DNA of 64,000 nucleotides. Origin: Bacillus sp. REN16. GTDB taxonomy: Bacteria > Bacillota > Bacilli > Bacillales > Bacillaceae_L. Below, in pieces: positions 10,169 through 22,771 of this stretch. Position 1 is the first letter of the stretch; each line of letters begins with the position of its first letter. The position numbers and the translations under genes are program-made. The DNA lies in NCBI RefSeq assembly GCF_020731355.1, contig NZ_JAJFZK010000010.1, positions 1 to 64,000 of the forward strand, written 5' to 3'. Under the pieces are notes generated by a model, which saw nothing but the letters and a program-made list of their open reading frames with translations, searched no databases and had not been told where the DNA came from.

Positions 10169-11278
10169 ATGGCGAAGAATTGTAATCGGTCATTCACCAT
10201 CATTTTTTTAAGCATGATCTTTATGCTAATGTCTTCCTGTGGGCAGTCACAAGGTAAAGTCGAAATTCAAGGTACGAATAAAACTCCTCGCGAGGTTTTA
10301 GGCTTCTATACAGAACAGGAAGGAACCTATCCAGGGTCTCAACCCACTGTTGACAGGCAATTCTTCAATTTAAGCATAATTGCACCTTTCTGGTATAAAC
10401 TTGATGATAAACGTCCAGGCAGTCTTATAGAATCAGTTACAGCAGAGCATAAAAGAAAGGTTATTCAAAGTGCCCATGAAAAACACATTAAGGTATATAT
10501 GGTTGTACATAATCTCTTTTATGAAACCGTGGAGAAGGGAAAGCAGGTAGCAAGTAATGTACTCGATAACGATAATATTCGCGATGTTTTTATTCAGAAC
10601 TTACGTAATGAAATAAATCAGTTTAATTATGACGGTATTAATATTGACATGGAAAATTTGTATATGACTGACCGTGATTCCTTTAGCCAACTGATAAGGG
10701 AATTGTCTGATGTGCTAAATCTTGATGGAAAAGCAGTTACGGTCTCAGTCCCGGCAAACACAGGTGATTCCCGAGCTAATCCCTGGTCACCGTGGTTTGA
10801 TTACGAAAAGATTGGTCAATATTCAGATGGGTTAATGATTATGACATACGATGAGCACAATCCTAGAACAAAACCCGGATCATCAGCATCAGTCGATTGG
10901 ACAGAAGCAACGATTCAATATGCTTTGAAACAGGGAGTACCACCATCAAAAATTTTACTAGGTATCGCCGGTTATGGATGGGACTGGGATACAACAGCAG
11001 GCGAAGCCAAGTATAGCTCCTATGAAGAGTTAATGGCTCAGAAAACAAAATATAACGCTAAAGTTCTATGGGACTCCCGTTCACAAACACCTCATTTCAG
11101 TTACCTGGATGAAGAACAACATAGCCACCAGGTTTGGTTTGAGAATAGCGATAGTCTGCGGTATAAGCTAGACCTTGTAGAAAAATATAACTTACGAGGA
11201 ATCGGGATTTGGCGACTCGGCTTAGAAGACCCAAAGTATTGGACGACAATACAAGAGAAAATAAAAGTAAAAAAGTGA
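10169..11278 (+). CDS. Glycoside hydrolase family 18 lipoprotein
   Basis: The protein has 369 residues, with AGAAGG before the ATG. An N-terminal hydrophobic segment ends in a lipobox (LMSSC, Cys at about 24), so it should be exported and lipid-anchored. The catalytic DGxxxDxE motif is present as YDGINIDMEN; later strands MIMTYDEHN and GIGIWRLGLED fit the GH18 barrel. There is no LysM domain, unlike SleL and YaaH, the Bacillus spore cortex hydrolases of the same fold. It may act on peptidoglycan (N-acetylglucosaminidase) or chitin-like chains; the sequence does not decide. It stands alone. Confidence 0.8.
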   Translation: MAKNCNRSFTIIFLSMIFMLMSSCGQSQGKVEIQGTNKTPREVLGFYTEQEGTYPGSQPTVDRQFFNLSIIAPFWYKLDDKRPGSLIESVTAEHKRKVIQSAHEKHIKVYMVVHNLFYETVEKGKQVASNVLDNDNIRDVFIQNLRNEINQFNYDGINIDMENLYMTDRDSFSQLIRELSDVLNLDGKAVTVSVPANTGDSRANPWSPWFDYEKIGQYSDGLMIMTYDEHNPRTKPGSSASVDWTEATIQYALKQGVPPSKILLGIAGYGWDWDTTAGEAKYSSYEELMAQKTKYNAKVLWDSRSQTPHFSYLDEEQHSHQVWFENSDSLRYKLDLVEKYNLRGIGIWRLGLEDPKYWTTIQEKIKVKK

Positions 11279-12865: not shown

Positions 12866-12946
12866 ATTTTGTTTTTAATTTCCATTGAAATCGAACGTAT
12901 ATTCTCTTATGATTAAGAATATAATACGAACATATATTCTTTTTGG
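12866..12946. repeat. uvrX promoter repeat, copy A
   Basis: These 81 bp match 15516-15596 at 76 positions in the same orientation. It covers the promoter and both LexA-like boxes of uvrX. Confidence 0.9.
12892..12940 (+). promoter_or_regulatory. Tandem LexA (SOS) boxes around a -10 element
   Basis: CGAACGTATATTCT (12892-12905) and CGAACATATATTCT (12927-12940) each match 12 of 14 positions of the Bacillus LexA consensus CGAACRNRYGTTYC. A TATAAT at 12920-12925 lies between them, so bound LexA would block polymerase. This predicts DNA-damage induction of uvrX. Confidence 0.75.
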
Positions 12947-12958
12947 AGATGATGTCAG

Positions 12959-14218
12959 ATGGTGGATTACAGTCAGTTGCCCGTTCAAAAGATTTTATGC
13001 GTGGATATAAAGAGCTTCTATGCGAGCTGTGCAGCAGTATTATTAGGTCTTGATCCACTTGAGTGCTATTTGGCGGTTGTTGGAGATACTGAGCGCCCGG
13101 GAAGTGTTGTGCTCGCCGCTTCACCAAAGCTAAAACAGGAATTTGGGATCAAAACGGGGTCTAGGCTTTTTGAAATCCCAAAGGATCCGCGAATTAAAGT
13201 TGTAAACCCGAAAATGGCAACCTATTTACGAATTTCAACAGAAATTACGAGACTTTTTAATCGGTATGTCCCCAAAAGTGCGATTCATGTGTATAGCGTA
13301 GATGAAAGCTTTATCAAGATTGATGGAACTGAAAAATTATGGGGAGATGCGACAACGATTGCGCGTAAAATCAAGCAAGAGATTGAAGCTGAGTATGGGC
13401 TAACCTGTGCGATTGGGATTGGCCCTAATATGCTAATGGCAAAGCTATGCTTAGATTTGGATGCAAAGAAAAAGGGCATTGCAGAATGGACCTATGACGA
13501 TATCCCCGAAAAATTATGGTCCATATCACCACTGCGAGAAATGTGGGGAATTGGGAGAAGGGTAGAGCGAACCTTGAATGGAATGGGAATTACAACCGTT
13601 GGGCAGCTTGCCCACTATCCACTTGAATTGCTTGAGAAAAAATTCGGAGTGATGGGGAACCAATTATACTACCATGCCTGGGGTGTCGATTTATCGGAGC
13701 TTGGTGCGCCTATTATGCAAGGGCAGATTAGCTTTGGGAAAAGCCAAATTCTGATGCGTGATTATCCAGATCCGGAAGAAGTAAAGCATGTCATTCTTGA
13801 AATGTGTGAAGAGGTAGCAAGGCGTGCACGACGACATAAAAAGGCAGGTCGAACGATTAGCCTTGGAATTCAATATAGCCAAGATGAATTTGGCGGAGGA
13901 TTTTATCGGTCGAAAACGATTGAAGCTCCGACCAATATTACGATGGAAATGTATCGTGTCTGTCTTGCATTATTTGAGAAATTTTATACCCGAAAGACCG
14001 TTCGCCAAATCTCAATTTCGCTTTCCAATATTGAGGATGACACACAAATGCAATTGGATTTGTTTTATCTTAATCGAGTTAAGCAGCATAAGCTTGGTTA
14101 TGTAATGGATGGCATCCGAGGAAAATACGGTTCAGATGCGATCCTGCGTGCAGTTTCCTATACAAATGCTGGAACATCAAGGCTCCGCAGCAAGCTTGTT
14201 GGCGGACACAAAGGATAG
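12959..14218 (+). CDS. uvrX: UvrX-type Y-family DNA polymerase
   Basis: The protein has 419 residues, with GGAG ten bases before the ATG. It is a Y-family translesion polymerase close to UvrX of prophage SP-beta and to YqjW. The metal-binding residues sit in ILCVDIKSFYASC and in the catalytic YSVDESFI; a thumb helix-hairpin-helix is seen around GIGRRVERTLNGMGI; a sliding-clamp binding motif near the C-terminus reads MQLDLF. It copies past damaged bases at the cost of accuracy. Tandem LexA boxes upstream predict SOS control. Its usual partner yolD is reduced to nine codons immediately downstream, and a complete yolD survives at 15650. Confidence 0.9.
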   Translation: MVDYSQLPVQKILCVDIKSFYASCAAVLLGLDPLECYLAVVGDTERPGSVVLAASPKLKQEFGIKTGSRLFEIPKDPRIKVVNPKMATYLRISTEITRLFNRYVPKSAIHVYSVDESFIKIDGTEKLWGDATTIARKIKQEIEAEYGLTCAIGIGPNMLMAKLCLDLDAKKKGIAEWTYDDIPEKLWSISPLREMWGIGRRVERTLNGMGITTVGQLAHYPLELLEKKFGVMGNQLYYHAWGVDLSELGAPIMQGQISFGKSQILMRDYPDPEEVKHVILEMCEEVARRARRHKKAGRTISLGIQYSQDEFGGGFYRSKTIEAPTNITMEMYRVCLALFEKFYTRKTVRQISISLSNIEDDTQMQLDLFYLNRVKQHKLGYVMDGIRGKYGSDAILRAVSYTNAGTSRLRSKLVGGHKG

Positions 14219-14259
14219 AAAGAAGGTAATAAGGAATGATACGAGACCGCGGAGCGATC
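14190..14259. repeat. uvrX-yolD junction repeat, copy A
   Basis: These 70 bp cover the last uvrX codons, the intergenic gap and the first yolD codons. They match 15604-15673 with a single difference. After 14259 similarity ends abruptly and the yolD frame stops. Confidence 0.92.
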
Positions 14260-14262
14260 TAA
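14236..14262 (+). pseudogene. yolD stub, eight codons
   Basis: It has the same start as the intact yolD at 15650 (M-I-R-D-R-G-A-I) and then TAA. The rest of the gene has been replaced by unrelated sequence that leads straight into a terminator. Confidence 0.8.
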
Positions 14263-14275
14263 ACAATACTATAAT

Positions 14276-14320
14276 AAAGGGGAGGCTATAACGTTTATAA
14301 CGATAAACTTCCCCTTTTTT
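14276..14320 (+). terminator. Rho-independent terminator
   Basis: AAAGGGGA pairs with TCCCCTTT across a loop that contains TATAACG repeats, followed by more T. It ends the uvrX transcript, and the loop holds a fragment (GGAGGCTATAACG) of the dispersed repeat seen at 5413. Confidence 0.7.
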
Positions 14321-14422
14321 TATCGTTGTTTAACCTAATAATAGTCAAACAAAAACCAATTCAAGCATTTCATTTAAGGTAGAAGACGTACTCGATAAGC
14401 ATTACCCCACTACAGGACAGAC

Positions 14423-15334
14423 CTAAAGATCCTGCTCATTTTGTTTCAGTTTCAAAATTTCTTCTCTAGTCAAACCAGTTATCTCCTCAATTAATGAAAG
14501 ATCAAGCCCCTTTTTTATCATCATTAAGGCGTTTTGATGGTTTGCTTCTTTTCTTCCAATTTCTTTCCCTAATCTGCGTTCTCCTTCTAGGTTGCTTAAC
14601 AAATCACGTAGCTCTTTTGCACGCGCTTCATAAATGACACGATTTTCTTTGTTTGCACTTATAGTTTCCCACTCAATGAGTGCTTCTCTTACTTGCTCGA
14701 TGTTCATTGCCCACTCCTCCAATTCGGACATTAATTCATCGTCTAATTTATTTTGCGGATAATCAACAGCTGATAACATCAACAGCCAAGGTAGTTGATT
14801 ATTCTGCATCATTTCCCGATGGTATTTTCTCCATTGTACCACGAAAGAGGTCAAATCAAACACATGGAATTCAAGGTGGTCACTCCATAAGAAATGTTTA
14901 CTATTTTCTCGAATATGAAAAGTTGTGTGGAAATCATCGGTTTCAGAAGGGAAAAGTGAGAAGTTTAAAATAGAAATTGAAATGGTGGGTCGCAATTTTT
15001 GATATAATTCACCGGAATGAATAGAGGATGAATAGGTCTTTGCCCAATAGTAGAGTATGCGTTCTGGTAAATCATGTTTGTTAATAATTTGAATTTCAAC
15101 ATTAATATTTTCATCGTTTGCAGTATTAACAGCTAAATCCAGTCGAACTGTTTTTCCATCCTTAGTCTCCTTGGAGATTTCAGTATTTATGAATTGTAAA
15201 TCTTGAATTCGATTATTACCTTTCCTTCCTAGAAGGTCATTCAAAAATGCGATTGTAATATGTTTTCGACTTGGCTGACCAAATAACTGTTTGAACATAA
15301 AATCCACTTTTAAATCGAGGTATTCGGTTTTCAT
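14423..15334 (-). CDS. Rpn family recombination-promoting nuclease / PD-(D/E)XK transposase-like protein
   Basis: The protein has 303 residues. The N-terminus (DLKVDFMFKQLFG, then HITIAFLNDLLG) and the nuclease core RLDLAV...VEIQI (aspartate plus ExQ) are those of the Rpn/PDDEXK_2 family, and the C-terminus has the usual helical region ending in a short HTH-like repeat (DLSLIEEITGLTREEILKL). Rpn proteins are Ca/Mg-dependent DNA endonucleases linked with RecA-independent gene transfer and, in recent reports, phage defence. It stands alone between the two uvrX repeat copies, in the opposite direction. No terminal inverted repeats were seen. Confidence 0.85.
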   Translation of the reverse strand: MKTEYLDLKVDFMFKQLFGQPSRKHITIAFLNDLLGRKGNNRIQDLQFINTEISKETKDGKTVRLDLAVNTANDENINVEIQIINKHDLPERILYYWAKTYSSSIHSGELYQKLRPTISISILNFSLFPSETDDFHTTFHIRENSKHFLWSDHLEFHVFDLTSFVVQWRKYHREMMQNNQLPWLLMLSAVDYPQNKLDDELMSELEEWAMNIEQVREALIEWETISANKENRVIYEARAKELRDLLSNLEGERRLGKEIGRKEANHQNALMMIKKGLDLSLIEEITGLTREEILKLKQNEQDL

Positions 15335-15476
15335 AAAATATCGTCCTTTCGGGGTTGTATTAGGGGTGTAATAAGGAACTTTCTTTACAAATCATTAATT
15401 TCGACAATTAATCACAAATTCCTGCGAGGTTGTAAAAAATTTAAATACCTAATTCAACAGATTTAGGTGCTATTTA

Positions 15477-15507
15477 CTACGATATACTCTTTAATGTAGG
15501 GTCAGGA
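15477..15507. repeat. yvrJ 3'-end repeat, short copy 3
   Basis: The minus strand reads CTGACCCTACAT...AGAGTATATCGTA, the last codons of yvrJ (DP..., KSIS, stop) with an internal deletion compared with 5051 and 9080. It lies directly upstream of the second uvrX promoter copy. Confidence 0.65.
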
Positions 15508-15515
15508 ACTCTTTT

Positions 15516-15596
15516 ATTTTGTTTTTAATTTCCATTGAAATCGAACGTATATTCTTTTATTATTGAGAATATAATACGAACATACATTCCTTTTGG
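15516..15596 (+). repeat. uvrX promoter repeat, copy B, with LexA boxes
   Basis: It matches 12866-12946 at 76 of 81 positions. It keeps the -10 element and two LexA boxes, CGAACGTATATTCT (15542-15555) and CGAACATACATTCC (15577-15590, 13 of 14 to consensus). It should therefore drive SOS-controlled transcription of the remaining yolD. Confidence 0.88.
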
Positions 15597-15603
15597 GGTA
15601 TTG

Positions 15604-15673
15604 GCAAGCTTGTTGGCGGACACAAAGGATAGAAAGAAGGTAATAAGGAATGATACGGGACCGCGGAGCGATC
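15604..15673. repeat. uvrX-yolD junction repeat, copy B
   Basis: It is 69 of 70 identical to 14190-14259. Joined almost directly to the promoter repeat, it shows that about 1.24 kb of uvrX coding sequence has been deleted here. Confidence 0.92.
15606..15632 (+). pseudogene. uvrX remnant, last codons only
   Basis: The final eight codons (K-L-V-G-G-H-K-G) and the stop of uvrX are all that remain of the polymerase gene in this copy, five bases after the promoter repeat's GGGG. Confidence 0.75.
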
Positions 15674-15982
15674 AAATGGACAGCAATGATGCTGCCAGAA
15701 CATGTGAAAATACTTAGAGATTGGGCGGAGGAAGATACGTATGAGCAAAAGCCAGAACTAGATGAGCAGCAAATTGAAGAGATGAATGGCATTCTTTGCC
15801 AGGCGATGGAGGAGGGGAGAGAGATTATCGTTACGCATTACGAAGCGAAACACCACAAACTCCTCCTTGGCACGATTCATCATTATGATAACTTACAAAA
15901 CAGATTGCACATCATTGATAAATTTGGGGAAGCACACTATATCCCTATAAACATGCTAGTCGATCTGCGCTTTTCAGACTAA
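15650..15982 (+). CDS. yolD: YolD-like protein
   Basis: The protein has 110 residues. The start MIRDRGAIKWTAMMLPEHVK, followed by a helical acidic stretch and an SH3-like C-terminal part (IHHYDNLQNRLHIID...YIPINMLVDLRF), is typical of YolD proteins, the usual partner encoded after uvrX. YolD is thought to help or restrain the Y-family polymerase, a suggested UmuD-like role. Here it sits behind a LexA-boxed promoter with its own uvrX deleted, so it may serve in trans the polymerase made at 12959. A terminator follows at 16038. Confidence 0.85.
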   Translation: MIRDRGAIKWTAMMLPEHVKILRDWAEEDTYEQKPELDEQQIEEMNGILCQAMEEGREIIVTHYEAKHHKLLLGTIHHYDNLQNRLHIIDKFGEAHYIPINMLVDLRFSD

Positions 15983-16123: not shown

Positions 16124-16744
16124 TTAAGCATCTAGCTGGTCTACACGTTTCTCGTTAATAAATGTTGGTAACATTTTATAGAGGAGAGCAAAAATAATGA
16201 AAGCACCAATCCCAATGATGATACCGGCTACATTTGTAACGGCATCCCATATGCCAGCTAATATAGAAAATGCCGGTATGGTACATGTAATCCATGATTG
16301 AATGACTGCAATCCAGCCAGTATACTTTTCGATTGGTTTATTTTTGGCAAGTAACAGGTAAAATAGAAACCATAAAAATGCCCACATTAACCAGATGATT
16401 CCAAATTTAACATCCCCAAAATTTATAAAATTGACTAAAGAATAACCAATAGCGAGGATTGAAACCCATAAAGAATAGTAACCCACACCGCTTCCGCTTG
16501 CATTGGTTAGATTGGTAATCCCCACATACAAATAAGTAAATCCAAATAAAAAAATAGCTGAAGCTGATAAAATAGTTTGAGCGTCTCCATTAGCTGTTGT
16601 AATCATAAAAATAGGTGTAAATATTTGTAGCCCGCCAACAAATAGATTAAAAATACCTGCACTTTTACCGTCAATTTTTCCTAATAGCATGAAACCGTTG
16701 ACTAACAAAACAGCTCCAACATAAAGCAATCCGACATTTGACAT
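16124..16744 (-). CDS. AmiS/UreI family transporter
   Basis: The protein has 206 residues from the ATG 8 bases after GGGGG (a TTG two codons earlier is too close). There are six transmembrane segments. Sequences such as VGLLYVGAVLLVNGFMLLGK and FLFGFTYLYVGITNL fit the AmiS/UreI family, which forms channels for urea or short-chain amides in the cytoplasmic membrane. A perfect sigma-54 promoter lies 67 bases upstream, and the next gene upstream is the AmiC-like sigma-54 activator. I infer that it admits the amide hydrolysed by the amidase at 19915. Confidence 0.85.
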   Translation of the reverse strand: MSNVGLLYVGAVLLVNGFMLLGKIDGKSAGIFNLFVGGLQIFTPIFMITTANGDAQTILSASAIFLFGFTYLYVGITNLTNASGSGVGYYSLWVSILAIGYSLVNFINFGDVKFGIIWLMWAFLWFLFYLLLAKNKPIEKYTGWIAVIQSWITCTIPAFSILAGIWDAVTNVAGIIIGIGAFIIFALLYKMLPTFINEKRVDQLDA

Positions 16745-16810: not shown

Positions 16811-16828
16811 ATGCAATAAATGTGCCAA
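16811..16828 (-). promoter_or_regulatory. Sigma-54 promoter of the amiS-like gene
   Basis: On the minus strand it reads TTGGCACATTTATTGCAT, matching TGGCAC-N5-TTGCW with GG and GC exactly 10 bases apart. It requires an AAA+ activator, whose gene lies just upstream. Confidence 0.88.
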
Positions 16829-16937
16829 TGTATTACGTACACAGCAAGGGAGTCATCATTCCTAGATAAAAATATATTAAATTACCCCAAAACTAGTTTC
16901 TAAGTTAAAAGCTTTTGAATCAAAAAGAGGGGAGTCG

Positions 16938-16972
16938 TGTTTCATTATGATACATTGTTCCATGTTGAAACA
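16938..16972. promoter_or_regulatory. Candidate activator-binding sites upstream of amiS
   Basis: TGTTCCATGTTGAAACA at 16956-16972 matches TGTGCCATTTTGAAACA at 19584 in 15 of 17 positions. A weaker inverted match, TGTTTCATTATGATACA, sits at 16938-16954. The pair lies 110-160 bp upstream of the -24/-12 element, a normal enhancer distance. The rest of 16745-17093 shows no gene. Confidence 0.6.
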
Positions 16973-17093
16973 AATGTGTAAGAATCTTTTCTCCTAAAAT
17001 CGATAACTATTGTCAAATTTGCAGCAGCAAAATGAATAGGGTCTAACGATTCTCATTAATCGCTAAGCCCTATTCATGAATCAATCAGTTAAA

Positions 17094-19373
17094 TTATACT
17101 GTAATGTGAAACTCCTTAATTTTTCGATATAAAGTGCTGCGGGAAATTCCAAGCACTTGTGATGCTTCCATGACTGATTTTGATTCTTGTAATGTTTGTT
17201 CAATCATTGTTTTTTCCAAATCTTTTAATGATTTTTCTTTTGGTTTTTTTAGTTGATAGTAGCCCTTTAGAGCAGTCGGTAGGTGCTTTGCTTTAATGTG
17301 AGATTCTTCGGCTCTTCCAAGAAGAAATGCACGTTCCAATACGTTTCTTAGTTCGCGAATATTCCCTGGCCAATGATATTGAAAGAGTGAGGAAAATGCT
17401 TCATCACTCATTTTGTTTGGTCCACTGCCGTATATTTCTTGGAACTCCTGTAATATTTCTTCACAAAGGAATTCCATATCTTCAATTCTATTTCGAAGCG
17501 GGGGAATCGAAATGGATAATACATTTAAACGGTAAAATAAATCACTGCGAAACGAGTTATTGTATGCGATTTCCTCGTCAAGATTTCTGTTCGTTGCAGC
17601 AATTATTCTAACATCCACCGGGCGTTCTTTTGTATCACCAAGACGAACGATTTTTTTTGTTTCAATTGCTCGTAATAACACAACCTGTAACTCATATGGC
17701 ATGTCCCCAATTTCATCTAAAAAGATTGTTCCATAGTTGGCAGCTTCAAATTTTCCAATGGAACCGCCTTTTTTGGCACCGGTAAAAGCTCCTTCCACAA
17801 AACCAAATAGTTCGCTCGTAATCAGTTCTTTTGGCAACATCCCAGTGTTTACTGGGATGAACGGCCCATTTTTTCGATCACTTTGATAGTGAATAGACTT
17901 TGCAATGACTTCTTTACCGGTTCCAGTTTCACCAAGTATTAGTACATTTGCAACTGATTGCGAAGCGATTTTTGCCACTTCTAGCTCTGTACGGAATTGA
18001 TCACTTAAAGTGCGAATTTGTCCAAACTTGAATATTGTGCCTGAACGATGGATGTTTTTCTTGGGTTTAATTAAATATAGTTGTTGATTGTTTGTTTCAT
18101 AATGATGGACTTGGAAGGTAGTATCCAATTGTTGCAGCATACTTTTCGAAATGAATTGACCTTCCTTATATTTTGTCAATTGGGCACCTTTTTCACTTAT
18201 ATATAAAATTTTAAGCTCATTAGATAAAACAAAGAGTGCTTGTTCACAAACTTCTCCCCATGCCCGTAGAAAAACTTCATTTAAATGTTCATACCGTCGG
18301 CCTTTTTCTTTAAATGGTTTTGGGGAAATGTTATGTTCAGAATCCCAGACAATGCCAAATTGGCCATCAGAAAGTACTTTCCCAATTTTTGCAGGTCGTG
18401 ACAAGTGACGATGAGTAGAATCGAATACCAATGTTCCACAAGGACTTTCTATTTTTTTATCGCTTAAATGGTAAAAAATCGTTCTGTGCTCTATACTTTT
18501 CGTTTCAATGATGCTATCAATAATCAATTTTGTCCCAAGATACGTATTAAACATAACAGAAGAAATACCCTTATTTCCTTTAGTAAACTGCCGGAAATTT
18601 TTAACAAAATGTAGGTTTTGTTCGTTCTTGATTGATTGGAAATAACTAGCTGAGCCATAATGGCCTTGAGCGACTTTAGCCCCCATTACATCAATTTCCG
18701 TTTCCTTTGTAATTGGGCTGAAAATAGGCATTTTATCAGGTGAAAGACCGAGGCGATGGTACTCTTGATAAAAGGAGATGACACTCTTTCCAACGATTGT
18801 TGAGACAATAGCATCTGGTTTTTTGAGAATAATTTCTTGTAAGACATCGTAAAAGTTTTGTTGCCCTAGTGGTACATAATGTTCCCCGATAACAGAACCA
18901 TTCATTTCTTGTAAATATGTTTTAACCTGTTGGTTCGTTTCTCGCGGATAAATGTAATCAGATCCAATACAAAATACCTTTTTCCCATAATGATGTACCA
19001 TATAATCTAATAGAGTGTGAACTTGTTGATTTGGAACTTCTCCAGTGTAGAGTACATTTGGATGACATTCCCTACCTTCATACAAAGCTGGATAGACGAG
19101 GAGACAATTGTATTTCTCTAGCACTGGTAAAATGGCTTTCCTGCAGGCCGATGTGTAACAGCCAATAAAAATTCTAACTCCTTCTTTTGCAAGTTTTTCT
19201 GCTTCTTCTGCACCTTTTACTGGGTCCGAACAGATATCCCGTACAATTGCTTCAATTGTGTAGTGGTCACTTTGGTATTCGGATATGGCAAATTTGGCAG
19301 CATCACTTTGTCCTTTCTCCGTTATCGACGTTGTACCAGTTAATGAAAATAATAAACCAACTTTAATGTACAC
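17094..19373 (-). CDS. Sigma-54 activator fused to an AmiC-like amide sensor
   Basis: The protein has 759 residues from GTG 19373, which follows GGAGGGGG; the frame stays open 24 codons further upstream without a site. Residues 1-355 form a periplasmic-binding-protein fold of the AmiC/urea-binding type (KVGLLFSLTGTTSITEKGQS, then GCYTSACRKAILPVLE and LVYPALYEG) with no signal peptide, so it senses ligand in the cytoplasm. Residues 378-436 look PAS-like (ALFVLSNELKILYIS). Residues 455-690 are the AAA+ domain with Walker A GETGTGKE and the sigma-54 contact GAFTGA. A Fis-type helix-turn-helix closes the protein (MEASQVLGISRSTLYRKI). In Pseudomonas, AmiC is a separate repressor of the antiterminator AmiR; here the sensor is built into a one-component sigma-54 activator. 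The target promoters lie on both sides (16811, 19641). Confidence 0.88.
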   Translation of the reverse strand: MYIKVGLLFSLTGTTSITEKGQSDAAKFAISEYQSDHYTIEAIVRDICSDPVKGAEEAEKLAKEGVRIFIGCYTSACRKAILPVLEKYNCLLVYPALYEGRECHPNVLYTGEVPNQQVHTLLDYMVHHYGKKVFCIGSDYIYPRETNQQVKTYLQEMNGSVIGEHYVPLGQQNFYDVLQEIILKKPDAIVSTIVGKSVISFYQEYHRLGLSPDKMPIFSPITKETEIDVMGAKVAQGHYGSASYFQSIKNEQNLHFVKNFRQFTKGNKGISSVMFNTYLGTKLIIDSIIETKSIEHRTIFYHLSDKKIESPCGTLVFDSTHRHLSRPAKIGKVLSDGQFGIVWDSEHNISPKPFKEKGRRYEHLNEVFLRAWGEVCEQALFVLSNELKILYISEKGAQLTKYKEGQFISKSMLQQLDTTFQVHHYETNNQQLYLIKPKKNIHRSGTIFKFGQIRTLSDQFRTELEVAKIASQSVANVLILGETGTGKEVIAKSIHYQSDRKNGPFIPVNTGMLPKELITSELFGFVEGAFTGAKKGGSIGKFEAANYGTIFLDEIGDMPYELQVVLLRAIETKKIVRLGDTKERPVDVRIIAATNRNLDEEIAYNNSFRSDLFYRLNVLSISIPPLRNRIEDMEFLCEEILQEFQEIYGSGPNKMSDEAFSSLFQYHWPGNIRELRNVLERAFLLGRAEESHIKAKHLPTALKGYYQLKKPKEKSLKDLEKTMIEQTLQESKSVMEASQVLGISRSTLYRKIKEFHITV

Positions 19374-19493
19374 ACTATTTGTCCCCCTCCAATATAATAG
19401 AAAACAAAATGAAATGAAAATGCCTGCATGTATATCATATATCAAATCTTCGGAAAACTAAATATATTCTGCTTTCTATTTTCGTAAAAGACA

Positions 19494-19600
19494 TGTTTCA
19501 ATTTGAGAATCAGTCTATTAATCGGACAAACCTCTGTTATTCTACTAATAAATTAACATTATCGAAATCTCCAGATAAAACAATGTGCCATTTTGAAACA
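19494..19600. promoter_or_regulatory. Candidate activator-binding sites upstream of the amidase operon
   Basis: TGTGCCATTTTGAAACA (19584-19600) is 15 of 17 identical to the site upstream of amiS. A second, inverted partial copy begins TGTTTCAA at 19494. They sit about 40 and 130 bases before the -24 element, between the activator gene and its target. Confidence 0.6.
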
Positions 19601-19640
19601 GCCATATACAGCAACACCTAACAGTTAATGTTCTTTTCAA

Positions 19641-19658
19641 TTGGCACGGTATTTGCAT
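19641..19658 (+). promoter_or_regulatory. Sigma-54 promoter of the amidase operon
   Basis: TTGGCACGGTATTTGCAT has GG and GC separated by 10 bases, a full match to the -24/-12 consensus. Transcription should begin near 19668. Confidence 0.9.
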
Positions 19659-19739
19659 ATAGAAATGGTAAGAGGGAAAGGAGGTTCAATAAATAGTTTG
19701 GCTGAAAAAATTGACAACCTTAACAAGGAGGAACCTAAA

Positions 19740-19922
19740 TTGAAACAATTATCTGTTCGAGAATTATTGGAAAACCAAGGTATTACAATCCCACCACATC
19801 TTTCTGAGATTGAAAAACGCTGGGAGGGAATTCAAACGCTTAAAGCAGAAATAAAAAATGCGGTGCTGGACGATTATGATATTGCACTTCGTAATATACC
19901 AGGAGGGGATCACATTGAGTAG
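19740..19922 (+). CDS. AtzG-like small subunit encoded before the amidase
   Basis: The protein has 60 residues from TTG 19740, eight bases after AAGGAGG. Another TTG in frame at 19698 follows a second AAAGGAGG at 12 bases, so the product may be 74 residues. The part ITIPPHLSEIEKRWEGIQTL, then acidic residues and a short tail with NIPGGDH, resembles AtzG/DUF4089 proteins, GatC-like subunits that pair with amidases such as AtzE. The stop overlaps the amidase start by 8 bases, as expected for a complex. The family call is moderate, the association strong. Confidence 0.6.
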   Translation: MKQLSVRELLENQGITIPPHLSEIEKRWEGIQTLKAEIKNAVLDDYDIALRNIPGGDHIE

Positions 19923-21330
19923 AGAGTTAGTTTCAAAGTCGGTCGAAGAGTTGGCTCCATTACTTGAAAATAGGGATGTATCGTCAGTCGAGTTAACAAA
20001 AGCAGTTTTAGATCACGCAGAGGCAGTTAATGAAGAAATTAATGCATATGTGAGTTTTACAAGAAAACAGGCAGTTGAAGCAGCTGAGAAAGCGGATATG
20101 GAAATCGCTTCTGGAAATTATCGAGGAATGTACCATGGAATTCCAATGGCCGTTAAAGATAATCTTTATTTTAAAGATGAAGTGACGACAATGTCATCAA
20201 AGATTCATGGTGAGTTTGTTTCTTCTTATGATGCTACAATCATTGCTAAAATGAAGGAAGCCGGAATTGTTTTCACTGGAAAATTAAACATGCATGAATA
20301 TGCATGGGGAATTACAAATAACAGTCCTCATTTTGGACCTGTTAAAAATCCATGGAATTTAAACAAAATTCCTGGTGGTTCAAGTGGTGGCTCGGGTGCC
20401 GCTGTTGCTGCTGATATGACTGTTGCAACATTAGGAACGGATACAGCTGGCTCAATTCGTATTCCATCCTCAGCTTGCGGAATCGTTGGACTTAAGCCGA
20501 CACATGGAAGGGTAAGTAAATATGGCTGTTTCCCACTTGCATGGACACTTGACCACATTGGTCCAATGACAAAAACAGTGAAGGATGCGGCTGGTTTACT
20601 CGAGGTAATTGCAGGTTACGACACAAACGATCCAACTACTATAAATGTACCTGTTGGAAATTATACAGAGCAGTTAACAGGTGATATGAAGGATGTCGTT
20701 ATTGGAATAAATGAAGAGTATTTCTTCAAAAATGTTGACTCCGATGTAGAAAGGCTAGTTAGACAAGGTATTCAATCACTTGTTGAACAAGGTGCGAAGG
20801 TAGAGGAAGTAAAAATACCTGCATTAAAATACGCTGAATACGTAGAATTAGTCACATCATTGTCTGAAGCGTCGGCCATCCATCATCGCGACTTGTTAAC
20901 ACGACCAGATGATTTCGGTGATGATATTCGAATGCTATTTGAATTAGGGGAGTTATTCACTGCTGTTGACTATCTCCAAGCTCAACAATTAAGAAGACAA
21001 TTAAAGCTTGAGTTCCAAAAGGCGTTTTCAAAAGTTGATGTGTTAATAGCTCCGACATTACCAATTGTTGGACCTGATATTGGTGATGATTTTGCAGACC
21101 TAAATGGAGAAAAGGTTGATTTAATCGAAAATATCATTCGCTTCACAGGACCTAGCAACTTAACTGGCCTACCAGCTTTAACGGTTCCTTGTGGATTCAA
21201 GAATGATTTGCCGGTAGGTCTACAAATTATTGGACCAGCGTTTAATGAAGGAAGAGTACTTAACGTAGGTTACGCTATTGAAAAAACAAATCCGTTACGT
21301 GGAAGAAAACCACAGATGGTGCTGTCTTAA
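19915..21330 (+). CDS. Amidase signature family hydrolase
   Basis: The protein has 471 residues from TTG 19915, following AGGAGGGG. It holds the Ser-cisSer-Lys triad of amidase signature enzymes: lysine in GIPMAVKDN, the glycine/serine loop GGSSGGSGAAVAADM, and the nucleophile region GTDTAGSIRIPSSACGIVGL, followed by KPTHGRVS. It is related to GatA, AtzE and other aliphatic amidases and hydrolyses an amide to acid and ammonia in the cytoplasm; the natural substrate cannot be read from sequence. It is transcribed from the sigma-54 promoter at 19641 together with the small gene before it. It is not part of a gatCAB operon, which argues against a tRNA amidotransferase role. Confidence 0.88.
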   Translation: MSRELVSKSVEELAPLLENRDVSSVELTKAVLDHAEAVNEEINAYVSFTRKQAVEAAEKADMEIASGNYRGMYHGIPMAVKDNLYFKDEVTTMSSKIHGEFVSSYDATIIAKMKEAGIVFTGKLNMHEYAWGITNNSPHFGPVKNPWNLNKIPGGSSGGSGAAVAADMTVATLGTDTAGSIRIPSSACGIVGLKPTHGRVSKYGCFPLAWTLDHIGPMTKTVKDAAGLLEVIAGYDTNDPTTINVPVGNYTEQLTGDMKDVVIGINEEYFFKNVDSDVERLVRQGIQSLVEQGAKVEEVKIPALKYAEYVELVTSLSEASAIHHRDLLTRPDDFGDDIRMLFELGELFTAVDYLQAQQLRRQLKLEFQKAFSKVDVLIAPTLPIVGPDIGDDFADLNGEKVDLIENIIRFTGPSNLTGLPALTVPCGFKNDLPVGLQIIGPAFNEGRVLNVGYAIEKTNPLRGRKPQMVLS

Positions 21331-21484: not shown

Positions 21485-22771
21485 ATGTATCTAGCAGTCA
21501 TCATATTTTTACTAACATTGGTTTTGGTCATTTGGCAGCCGAAGGGTCTATCAATTGGCTGGTCTGCTTGTACAGGGGCATTCCTGGCTCTAATTGTGGG
21601 TGTTGTATCTGTTAAAGATGTATTAAATGTTACAGGAATGGTTTGGAATGCTACATTGACATTAATAGCATTGATAATTATCTCTGTAGTGCTTGATAAA
21701 ATTGGTTTTTTTGAATGGGCGGCATTGCATATGACTCACTTTGCTAATGGGCATGGTTTAAAGATGTTCTTTTTAATCACTATCCTAGGGGCAATTGTTT
21801 CTGCCTTTTTTACAAACGATGGTGCAGCACTTATTCTGACTCCAATTGTTTTAGCAATGGTCCGTTCCCTGGGTTTTAAGAGAAAGATGTACCTGCCTTT
21901 TATTATGGCTTCAGGATTTATTGCAGATACCACATCATTGCCATTTGTAATTAGTAACCTCGTCAATATTGTTTCGGCAGACTTCTTCCAAATTGGTTTT
22001 TTCAAGTATGCGATGTATATGATTCTTCCAAATTTGTTTAGTTTGGGGGCAAGTATGCTTGTTCTTTATTTAGTTTTTCGTAAAGATATCCCAAACCATT
22101 TTGATATGGCTCATTTAAAGAAGCCTAGTGAAGCAATCAAGGATAGTAGAATATTTCGTATGTCATGGGTTGTATTGGTTTTCCTAATCGCAGGTTATTT
22201 TGTAAGTGAAGCTTTCTCCATTCCTGTATCCATTATAGCCGGGACGGTTGCCATTATATTTTTGCTTTTTGCACGCAGTAGTCCGATTATTGACACAGTA
22301 GTGATTATAAAACGTGCACCTTGGGCGATTGTATTTTTCTCTATCGGAATGTATGTTGTGGTATATGGTTTGAAAAATGTTGGATTGACAAGTTTTCTTG
22401 CTTTTCTTATAGAGGAAATTGCGGAACTGGGACTGTTTGTCACTACTATTGGAATGGGGTTTACTGCAGCTATTTTATCATCTGTTATGAATAATTTACC
22501 GACAGTCATGATTAATTCATTAGCGATAGCAGAAACGGACATTACTGGAATTGGGAAGGAAGCACTTATTTATGCAAACGTAATCGGAAGTGACCTAGGA
22601 CCCAAAATAACACCTATTGGTTCACTTGCTACCCTCCTTTGGCTACATATTTTAGCAACAAAAGATGTTAAAATTACATGGGGTTACTATTGTAAAATCG
22701 GAGTTATCCTTACAATACCGACCCTTTTCATCACATTAATCGGGTTGTATGTATCATTATTAATATTTTAA
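21485..22771 (+). CDS. ArsB/NhaD-type membrane transporter
   Basis: The protein has 428 residues and about eleven hydrophobic segments. The sequence belongs to the ArsB/ion transporter superfamily: [18 protein letters not shown] in one half and [16 protein letters not shown] with [19 protein letters not shown] in the other are its paired signature loops. ArsB itself extrudes arsenite, but no arsR or arsC lies nearby. Instead the gene follows the amidase operon after a terminator, so a carboxylate or other anion made from the amide is an alternative substrate. Family call firm, substrate open. Confidence 0.8.

Follow-up and report, generated by a model that had tools for sequence, protein, structure and literature searches.

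Which signal controls a small group of amide genes in Bacillus sp. REN16, and by which kind of transcriptional switch? In the window, by which we mean the whole 64-kb stretch of DNA analyzed here, an AmiS/UreI channel gene and a two-gene amidase operon lie on either side of a gene whose single product joins an AmiC-type sensor to a sigma-54 activator. The surrounding genome, 4.6 Mb in 73 contigs, contains the sporulation genes SpoIIIAA and SpoIIIAB, one copy of RpoN, five other clear sigma-54 activator domains (E 3e-24 or better), and no second copy of the AmiS/UreI gene, which scored 193.7 bits against PF02293 (cut-off 25). As set out below, the regulator very probably switches on the flanking channel and amidase genes. 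The features of the locus are listed in Table 1.

Table 1. Features of the amide locus and their positions in the window. Distances of candidate activator sites are given to the -24 element.
Feature	Position	Strand	Basis
Regulator: AmiC-type sensor, PAS-like linker, sigma-54 AAA+, Fis-type HTH; 759 aa, GTG start	17094..19373	-	Pfam and motif positions
AmiC/UrtA-type ligand-binding domain, about residues 3-357	18303..19367	-	Peripla_BP_5 E 2e-112; PDB matches UrtA, AmiC
PAS-like linker	17994..18293	-	Weak Pfam PAS score in this protein; low-confidence model
Sigma-54 AAA+ domain with GAFTGA	17511..18005	-	Sigma54_activat placement in genome search; motifs
amiS, AmiS/UreI-family channel gene	16124..16744	-	PF02293 E 3e-57
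Putative amiS -24/-12 promoter TGGCACATTTATTGCA, 1 mismatch, 83 bp before start codon	16827-16812	-	
Putative amidase-operon -24/-12 promoter TGGCACGGTATTTGCA, exact consensus, 98 bp before small ORF	19642-19657	+	
Candidate activator site, 1 mismatch, 120 bp upstream of amiS -24 element	16938..16954	no strand	
Candidate activator site, 1 mismatch, 138 bp upstream of amiS -24 element	16956..16972	no strand	
Candidate activator site, 3 mismatches, 141 bp upstream of amidase -24 element; weak alone	19494..19510	no strand	
Candidate activator site, 2 mismatches, 51 bp upstream of amidase -24 element	19584..19600	no strand	
Small ORF, 60 aa, TTG start, good Shine-Dalgarno	19740..19922	+	Aligned homologues in 6 loci
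Amidase-signature hydrolase, 471 aa	19915..21330	+	PF01425 E 2e-120

The preliminary description of this DNA had proposed that an AmiC-like domain, an AAA+ domain with GAFTGA, and a Fis-type DNA-binding end are present in one protein, and this was confirmed. In a single open frame, the regulator matched Peripla_BP_5 (Table 1), Sigma54_activat (7e-62) together with the AAA lid, and the Fis-type HTH_8 (2e-11), all above their Pfam cut-offs, and it carries Walker A GETGTGKE at residue 481, GAFTGA at 528, and DEIGD at 553 in the 759-aa numbering. The attributes of a sigma-54 enhancer-binding protein, namely Walker A and B motifs, GAFTGA, and a DNA-binding domain, were thus found in the protein itself, and RpoN and putative -24/-12 promoters were found in the genome. 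In the PDB matches, AmiC aligned over almost the entire sensor domain (E 1.5e-51). Among the matches listed, no NCBIfam model reached its cut-off on the regulator, and the best one, PrdR, was matched via the AAA+/HTH half. A Pfam scan of nine ORFs around the regulator revealed no separate AmiR with an RNA-binding output; with an AAA+/HTH output and no AmiR nearby, the circuit differs from AmiC-AmiR, as had been suggested.

The start codon was assigned to the GTG at 19373, which is preceded by the Shine-Dalgarno sequence GGAGGGGG and corresponds to the start, or lies within a few residues of the start, of several homologues. An upstream TTG, which would yield a 783-aa protein with a hydrophobic N-terminus, was dropped on these two grounds. 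Starting from this GTG, the protein lacks a signal peptide, which places the sensor in the cytoplasm, in line with the preliminary description; the reading of a Peripla_BP_5 fold devoid of an export signal depends on this choice of start.

The segment that connects the two halves had been called PAS-like, a designation that holds for some members of the family and for the order of strands and helices in a low-confidence predicted structure, but that falls below the Pfam threshold in the window protein (E 0.057, 13.9 bits; cut-off 22.6). When E values as high as 1 were accepted, PAS was matched by 9 of 21 scanned members (counting the window protein), the best value being 2e-5. The predicted structure had a pTM of 0.42, much of the sensor half being of low confidence. 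Across 20 homologues, the identity of the linker to that of the window was 6-41%. In L130, it is reduced to 41 aa.

How widely this fusion occurs was analyzed in several genome samples. A relative of the N-domain (E 1e-25 or better) was found in 45 of 398 genomes of the same class. Nineteen of them, REN16 included, contain 21 fused regulators, one of which is frame-broken; in one further genome, the halves are encoded by two adjoining genes, and the open frames listed for the other 25 (309-559 aa) are not long enough to encode the fusion. Sampling of the order (396 genomes) brought in 16 more copies from 14 additional genomes; 15 of these are single-frame fusions, and the last is interrupted by a stop and a contig end. 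At E 1e-75, a sample of the phylum (398 genomes) returned the REN16 genome only, and no full-length relative was detected at E 1e-80 in the other eight genomes of the genus. The full-length protein was present at E 1e-100 in two of 72,556 plasmid records, both labeled "transporter substrate-binding protein" in RefSeq, and, among the matches listed in a pattern-limited search of a named genome collection, in one of the 80 loci kept. The named carriers of full-length relatives are Thalassobacillus, Parageobacillus, and Peribacillus, which, together with the two sporulation genes, suggests the class Bacilli for the window genome.

Two sets of loci were recruited via the regulator and not via neighboring genes, with flanks of mostly 6-8 kb, less at contig ends. 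Amide or nitrile genes were found in the fetched flanks of 37 of the 39 fused copies (window included, one frame-broken), that is, near all 24 fused copies of the first set (window, L042, L122-L133, L135-L143, L156) and 13 of the 15 of the second (L177-L184, L186-L192). These neighbors represent several unrelated enzyme families and encode AmiE-type aliphatic amidases, AmiB-like ATPases, AmiS, amidase-signature amidases, and nitrile hydratases, as well as an FmdA/AmdA-type hydrolase in L126. The two copies with no amide gene matched, either by our queries or by Pfam analysis of five neighbors each, belong to one genome (L186 and L189) and have resolvase or integrase genes as neighbors. The ArsB-like permease gene downstream in the window had no match in the flanks of the relatives. 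The linkage of regulator and amide genes spans many genera, with differing gene orders and enzymes. The arrangement is therefore not unique to the window genome: it is a conserved family and not a curiosity.

The preliminary description also placed -24/-12 promoters before amiS and the amidase pair, and proposed a search for them beside other fusions; both were borne out. Allowing no more than one mismatch to TGGCACGNNNNTTGCW, the 64 kb contain just two sites, one preceding amiS and the other the amidase operon. With two mismatches allowed, 11 sites were counted against 6.4 expected, only a mild excess; 5 of 100 shuffles reached this number. The scan of the first set covered 37 genes in 26 loci (24 fused, one split, and one unfused). 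Of these 26 loci, 21 had a sigma-54 site upstream of an amide gene at two mismatches or fewer and 24 at three or fewer (20 and 23 of 25 when the window is left out), compared with means of 0.34 and 2.1 and maxima of 2 and 5 in 200 shuffles. The two loci that failed at three mismatches are L157, an AmiC-type gene without a fused activator, and L130, in which amiS adjoins the regulator, yet no sigma-54 site was found. The best sites of L122, L123, and L125 have three mismatches, and some other sites are distant from, or slightly inside, the mechanically chosen starts. As a control on real sequence, 182 other ORFs of the same loci were scanned, of which 5 were preceded by such a site at two mismatches and 17 at three mismatches. 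Of the 13 loci with amide genes in the second set, 12 had a site at two mismatches and all 13 at three, these being counts without a shuffle control. When the scan was limited to the region upstream of the regulator, a site pointing outward was detected in 15 of 23 relatives (shuffle mean 0.15, maximum 2), and a site pointing towards the regulator in none of the 23. Putative sigma-54 promoters thus precede the amide operons of the relatives far more often than expected by chance.

The family comprises a short form of about 700-805 aa, to which the window regulator belongs, and a long form (about 915-1010 aa) in which an additional stretch of some 170-180 aa precedes the PAS-like part. In FastTree phylogenies, the short form was a single clade in both the sensor and the AAA+ trees, each with a support of 1.00; the long form was one group in the AAA+ tree (0.93), but the sensor tree did not recover it as a single group. 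The split pair L134 clustered with the long-form L133 and L137 in both trees, and the placement of L156 in the sensor tree was uncertain (0.54).

A motif resembling TGTnTCA-N3-TGAAACA, located mostly 48-64 and 119-169 bp upstream of the promoter, is probably the binding site of the activator, judging from its recurrence and spacing. In the window, TGTTTCATTATGATACA and TGTTCCATGTTGAAACA stand in tandem with an 18 bp period upstream of amiS, and weaker copies precede the amidase promoter (Table 1). At three mismatches, the motif occurs at 15 places in the 64 kb, so that single weak sites mean little. Among short-form loci, the motif idealized from the window sequence alone, allowing up to three mismatches, gave 12 sites in 9 of 13 loci (shuffle mean 0.61, maximum 4). 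In the long form, one site in 10 loci was at chance level (mean 0.56); this count assigned L131 to the short form and the split L134 to the long form, and both fall in the long-form part of the tree. No perfect 7-bp inverted repeat (gap 0-6) was present within about 220 bp upstream of 11 long-form promoters. In L122-L125, where the target is the same kind of amidase as in the window, the best or tied-best of 127-171 positions was located exactly 51 bp upstream, as in the window, L122 and L123 being close kin.

The second set gave sites at all 9 promoters of 8 short-form loci, 16 sites in total (shuffle mean 0.30, maximum 4 in 500), with distance ranges (45-66 and 115-165 bp) that were fixed after its sites had been seen. 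Fifteen of these 16 sites fall within the distances of the first set (48-63 and 120-169 bp), and the remaining one, at 64 bp, is 1 bp off. In L181, one regulator lies between an amiE operon and an amidase gene, as in the window though with different orientations, and both operons are preceded by sigma-54 promoters, with candidate activator sites 61-63 and 145-149 bp upstream. In the whole genome of REN16, seven places match the motif with at most one mismatch, two of which form the tandem pair. The other five, three inside and two outside ORFs, have no tandem arrangement, and we do not claim them as additional targets. A stricter family pattern was found at four places in the 4.6 Mb, three of them at this locus; the pattern was drawn partly from the window's own sites, and its specificity is to that extent circular.

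The small ORF of the amidase operon is conserved: homologues from six loci, in which they precede an amidase of the same kind, could be aligned, and it is also present in L177 and L178. It had been described as AtzG-like. The sequences do not support this label, as the six homologues gave no match pointing to AtzG or GatC in Pfam, NCBIfam, or the PDB, which we take to contain AtzG, and a profile built from them gave a single unrelated weak match in the PDB. Its end is overlapped by 8 bp by the start of the amidase gene, and it may possibly encode a small subunit of the amidase. The amidase itself contains Lys81, GGSSGG, and the Ser180 motif, whose catalytic roles we presume from FAAH and malonamidase. 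It scored below the NCBIfam AtzE cut-offs (362.9 against 461 and 352 against 425.75) and also below that of GatA.

The ligand, which the preliminary description did not name, was approached through the sensor pocket. In UrtA, as described in the available text of PMC10392092, urea is hydrogen-bonded by Ser122, Gln144, Tyr190, and Asn246, and a Trp120 mutant does not bind it. In our alignment, Ser75 and Tyr140 of the sensor are the retained pocket serine and tyrosine, and Tyr73, Leu97, and Val194 replace Trp120, Gln144, and Asn246, the AmiC residues there being Tyr, Pro, and Val. In an alignment of 22 proteins, residue 73 is always Tyr, residue 194 is Val in 21 and Ile in one, residue 97 is Leu in 17, Gln in four, and Pro in one, and Ser75, Tyr94, Glu99, Tyr140, and Ser219 are invariant. 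At the three urea-binding positions, the aligned pocket is AmiC-like and not UrtA-like, so the partners of the second amino group of urea would be largely hydrophobic, as expected for the alkyl or H substituent of a carboxamide. Because the three residues needed for urea are gone and the pocket resembles that of AmiC there, a small carboxamide, and not urea, is the most likely ligand, which narrows the search to amides.

Taken together, these data argue for a one-component, sigma-54-dependent amide switch, and we hold the whole of the following mechanism to be likely, with good confidence. The cytoplasmic AmiC-type domain would bind a small carboxamide, of the size of acetamide or propionamide, and not urea. 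Closure of this domain would act through the short PAS-like linker to release the AAA+ ring, held via its HTH at the TGTnTCA-N3-TGAAACA-like sites that lie about 50-165 bp ahead of the -24/-12 promoter of either operon. This ring would then reach RpoN-RNA polymerase by looping and use ATP to open the promoters, that of amiS allowing entry of the amide and that of the small ORF and amidase allowing its hydrolysis to ammonia. The fusion, the promoters, the repeated sites with their spacing, the linkage to amide genes, and the pocket residues come from sequence and comparison, whereas the ligand, activation upon its binding, the contact of protein and DNA, looping, and a role of the small ORF for the amidase are inferred.

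Other readings of the locus were weighed against this switch. The sensor could have kept the ligand of UrtA, in which case the switch would control urea uptake by AmiS/UreI and cleavage of an allophanate- or biuret-like urea derivative by the amidase. The N-domain scored 310.8 bits with the UrtA model, under the cut-off of 492.75, the AmiS/UreI family includes urea channels according to the available text of PMC10392092, the amidase resembles AtzE, albeit below its cut-off as stated above, and the urea-binding Gln is retained in four of 22 sensors. However, Trp120, Gln144, and Asn246 are Tyr, Leu, and Val here, the first and last of these positions admit nothing but Tyr and Val or Ile in all 22 proteins, and the linkage is to carboxamide hydrolases and nitrile hydratase, which makes a urea sensor improbable.

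It could also be argued that the promoters are sigma-54 dependent but that the main signal enters via the PAS-like segment, which lies between the sensor and the AAA+ domain, the AmiC-type domain being structural; PAS is the commonest sensor among Clostridiales activators in the available part of PMC6615313. The poor conservation of the linker and its reduction in L130, set against five invariant residues in the sensor pocket, make this very improbable. Nor do we give much credit to the view that the neighbors were brought together by common acquisition and that a different activator, or sigma-A promoters, would drive amiS and the amidase. The patchy distribution of the regulator in the genus and the five other activator domains in the genome would fit such a history, but the linkage holds across many genera with varied gene orders and enzymes, and the upstream sites and their spacing recur at these promoters; this explanation is likewise highly unlikely. 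The amide-responsive, sigma-54-dependent switch is thus the reading that we retain.

Beyond the window, we think it probable that a class-wide family of AmiC-sensor sigma-54 activators, undescribed before, governs amide and nitrile breakdown, nitrile hydratase operons included, in Bacillus-like spore-formers, where it would take the role of AmiC-AmiR in Pseudomonas, with a carboxamide-type pocket, a recognizable enhancer code, and a RefSeq label of transporter substrate-binding protein. Aliphatic amidases and nitrile hydratases are enzymes used industrially, and the family provides an enhancer motif and a ligand prediction for their operons, as well as a compact amide-inducible switch. It would also correct the naming of regulators as transport proteins in the two plasmid records.

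No description of an AmiC-sensor/sigma-54 fusion was found in the literature searched (full-text literature by titles and the starts of abstracts, with few subscription journals), including the available portions of PMC12316311, PMC3162934, and PMC4524646. This agrees with the preliminary description, which knew of none, and we could not find the combination of these two known parts described. The sensor domains named, in an open list, for 431 Clostridiales activators do not include an AmiC type in the available part of PMC6615313, and the word amidase is absent from the accessible text on a B. thuringiensis regulon (PMC4428206).

The locus can nevertheless be compared with several known systems. 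AcoR, PrdR, PrpR, and similar activators share the order of sensor, AAA+ domain, and Fis-type HTH, the GAFTGA motif, and the logic of an upstream activating sequence with a -24/-12 promoter, but they sense through domains such as PAS, GAF, PrpR_N, and V4R. With UrtA, the sensor shares its fold as well as Ser, Tyr, Glu, Tyr, and Ser at most positions of the pocket, whereas UrtA is an ABC-transporter binding subunit with a signal peptide, and its three urea-needed residues are not kept here. The amidase has the amidase-signature fold of AtzE and GatA, and a small ORF lies before and overlaps its gene, but it scores below both cut-offs, and the small ORF is not recognizable as AtzG or GatC. A parallel is also seen in AmiC-AmiR of Pseudomonas aeruginosa, in which a cytoplasmic amide sensor of the AmiC fold likewise controls amide hydrolase genes. 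There, as in the classical plasmid operons of the available part of PMC13209695, the output is AmiR, a separate antiterminator; here, it is a fused sigma-54 AAA+ activator with -24/-12 promoters, which would represent a second wiring of an AmiC sensor to gene expression, by ATP-driven activation of transcription instead of antitermination.

The long-form relatives of the regulator (L132-L141 and L186-L192; approximately 915-1010 aa) contain an additional segment, roughly 170-180 residues long, and a weak GAF match was detected in one of them. Amide genes were not found in the flanks of the L186 and L189 loci, which encode long-form fused regulators in one genome. Resolvase/integrase genes were observed close to both regulators.

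At L143:610-1164, a locus on a Peribacillus asahii plasmid, an exact −24/−12 site precedes an ORF whose annotation places it in the dihydroxyacetophenone dioxygenase family. At L131:8827-11755, another fused regulator adjoins nitrile hydratase and amiE genes; its reading frame is interrupted near position 10889 by a frame change that is either real or a sequencing error.

Other genes of the window are listed in the table. No match to the ArsB-type permease was obtained in the searched flanks of the regulator's relatives. A second amidase-signature gene, 43% identical to that of the window, lies beyond it on the same contig (C2:92896-94254). The umuC-like gene, so labelled from its translation, and yolD are found in a region containing direct repeats of 81 nt (94%) and 73 nt (97%). 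The pair looks as if it had been split by duplication and insertion.

Additional features of the window
Feature	Position	Context
ArsB-type permease gene	21485-22771	directly downstream of the amidase gene
umuC-like gene and yolD gene	12866-15676	transposase-family gene between them
PD-(D/E)XK transposase-family gene	14423-15334	between the umuC-like gene and yolD

An unfused AmiC-type gene was also observed near amiE genes (L157:7039-8280). No sigma-54 site with three or fewer mismatches was detected before the amiE gene tested at this locus, and the unfused AmiC-type gene and its neighboring amiE genes possibly represent another circuit.
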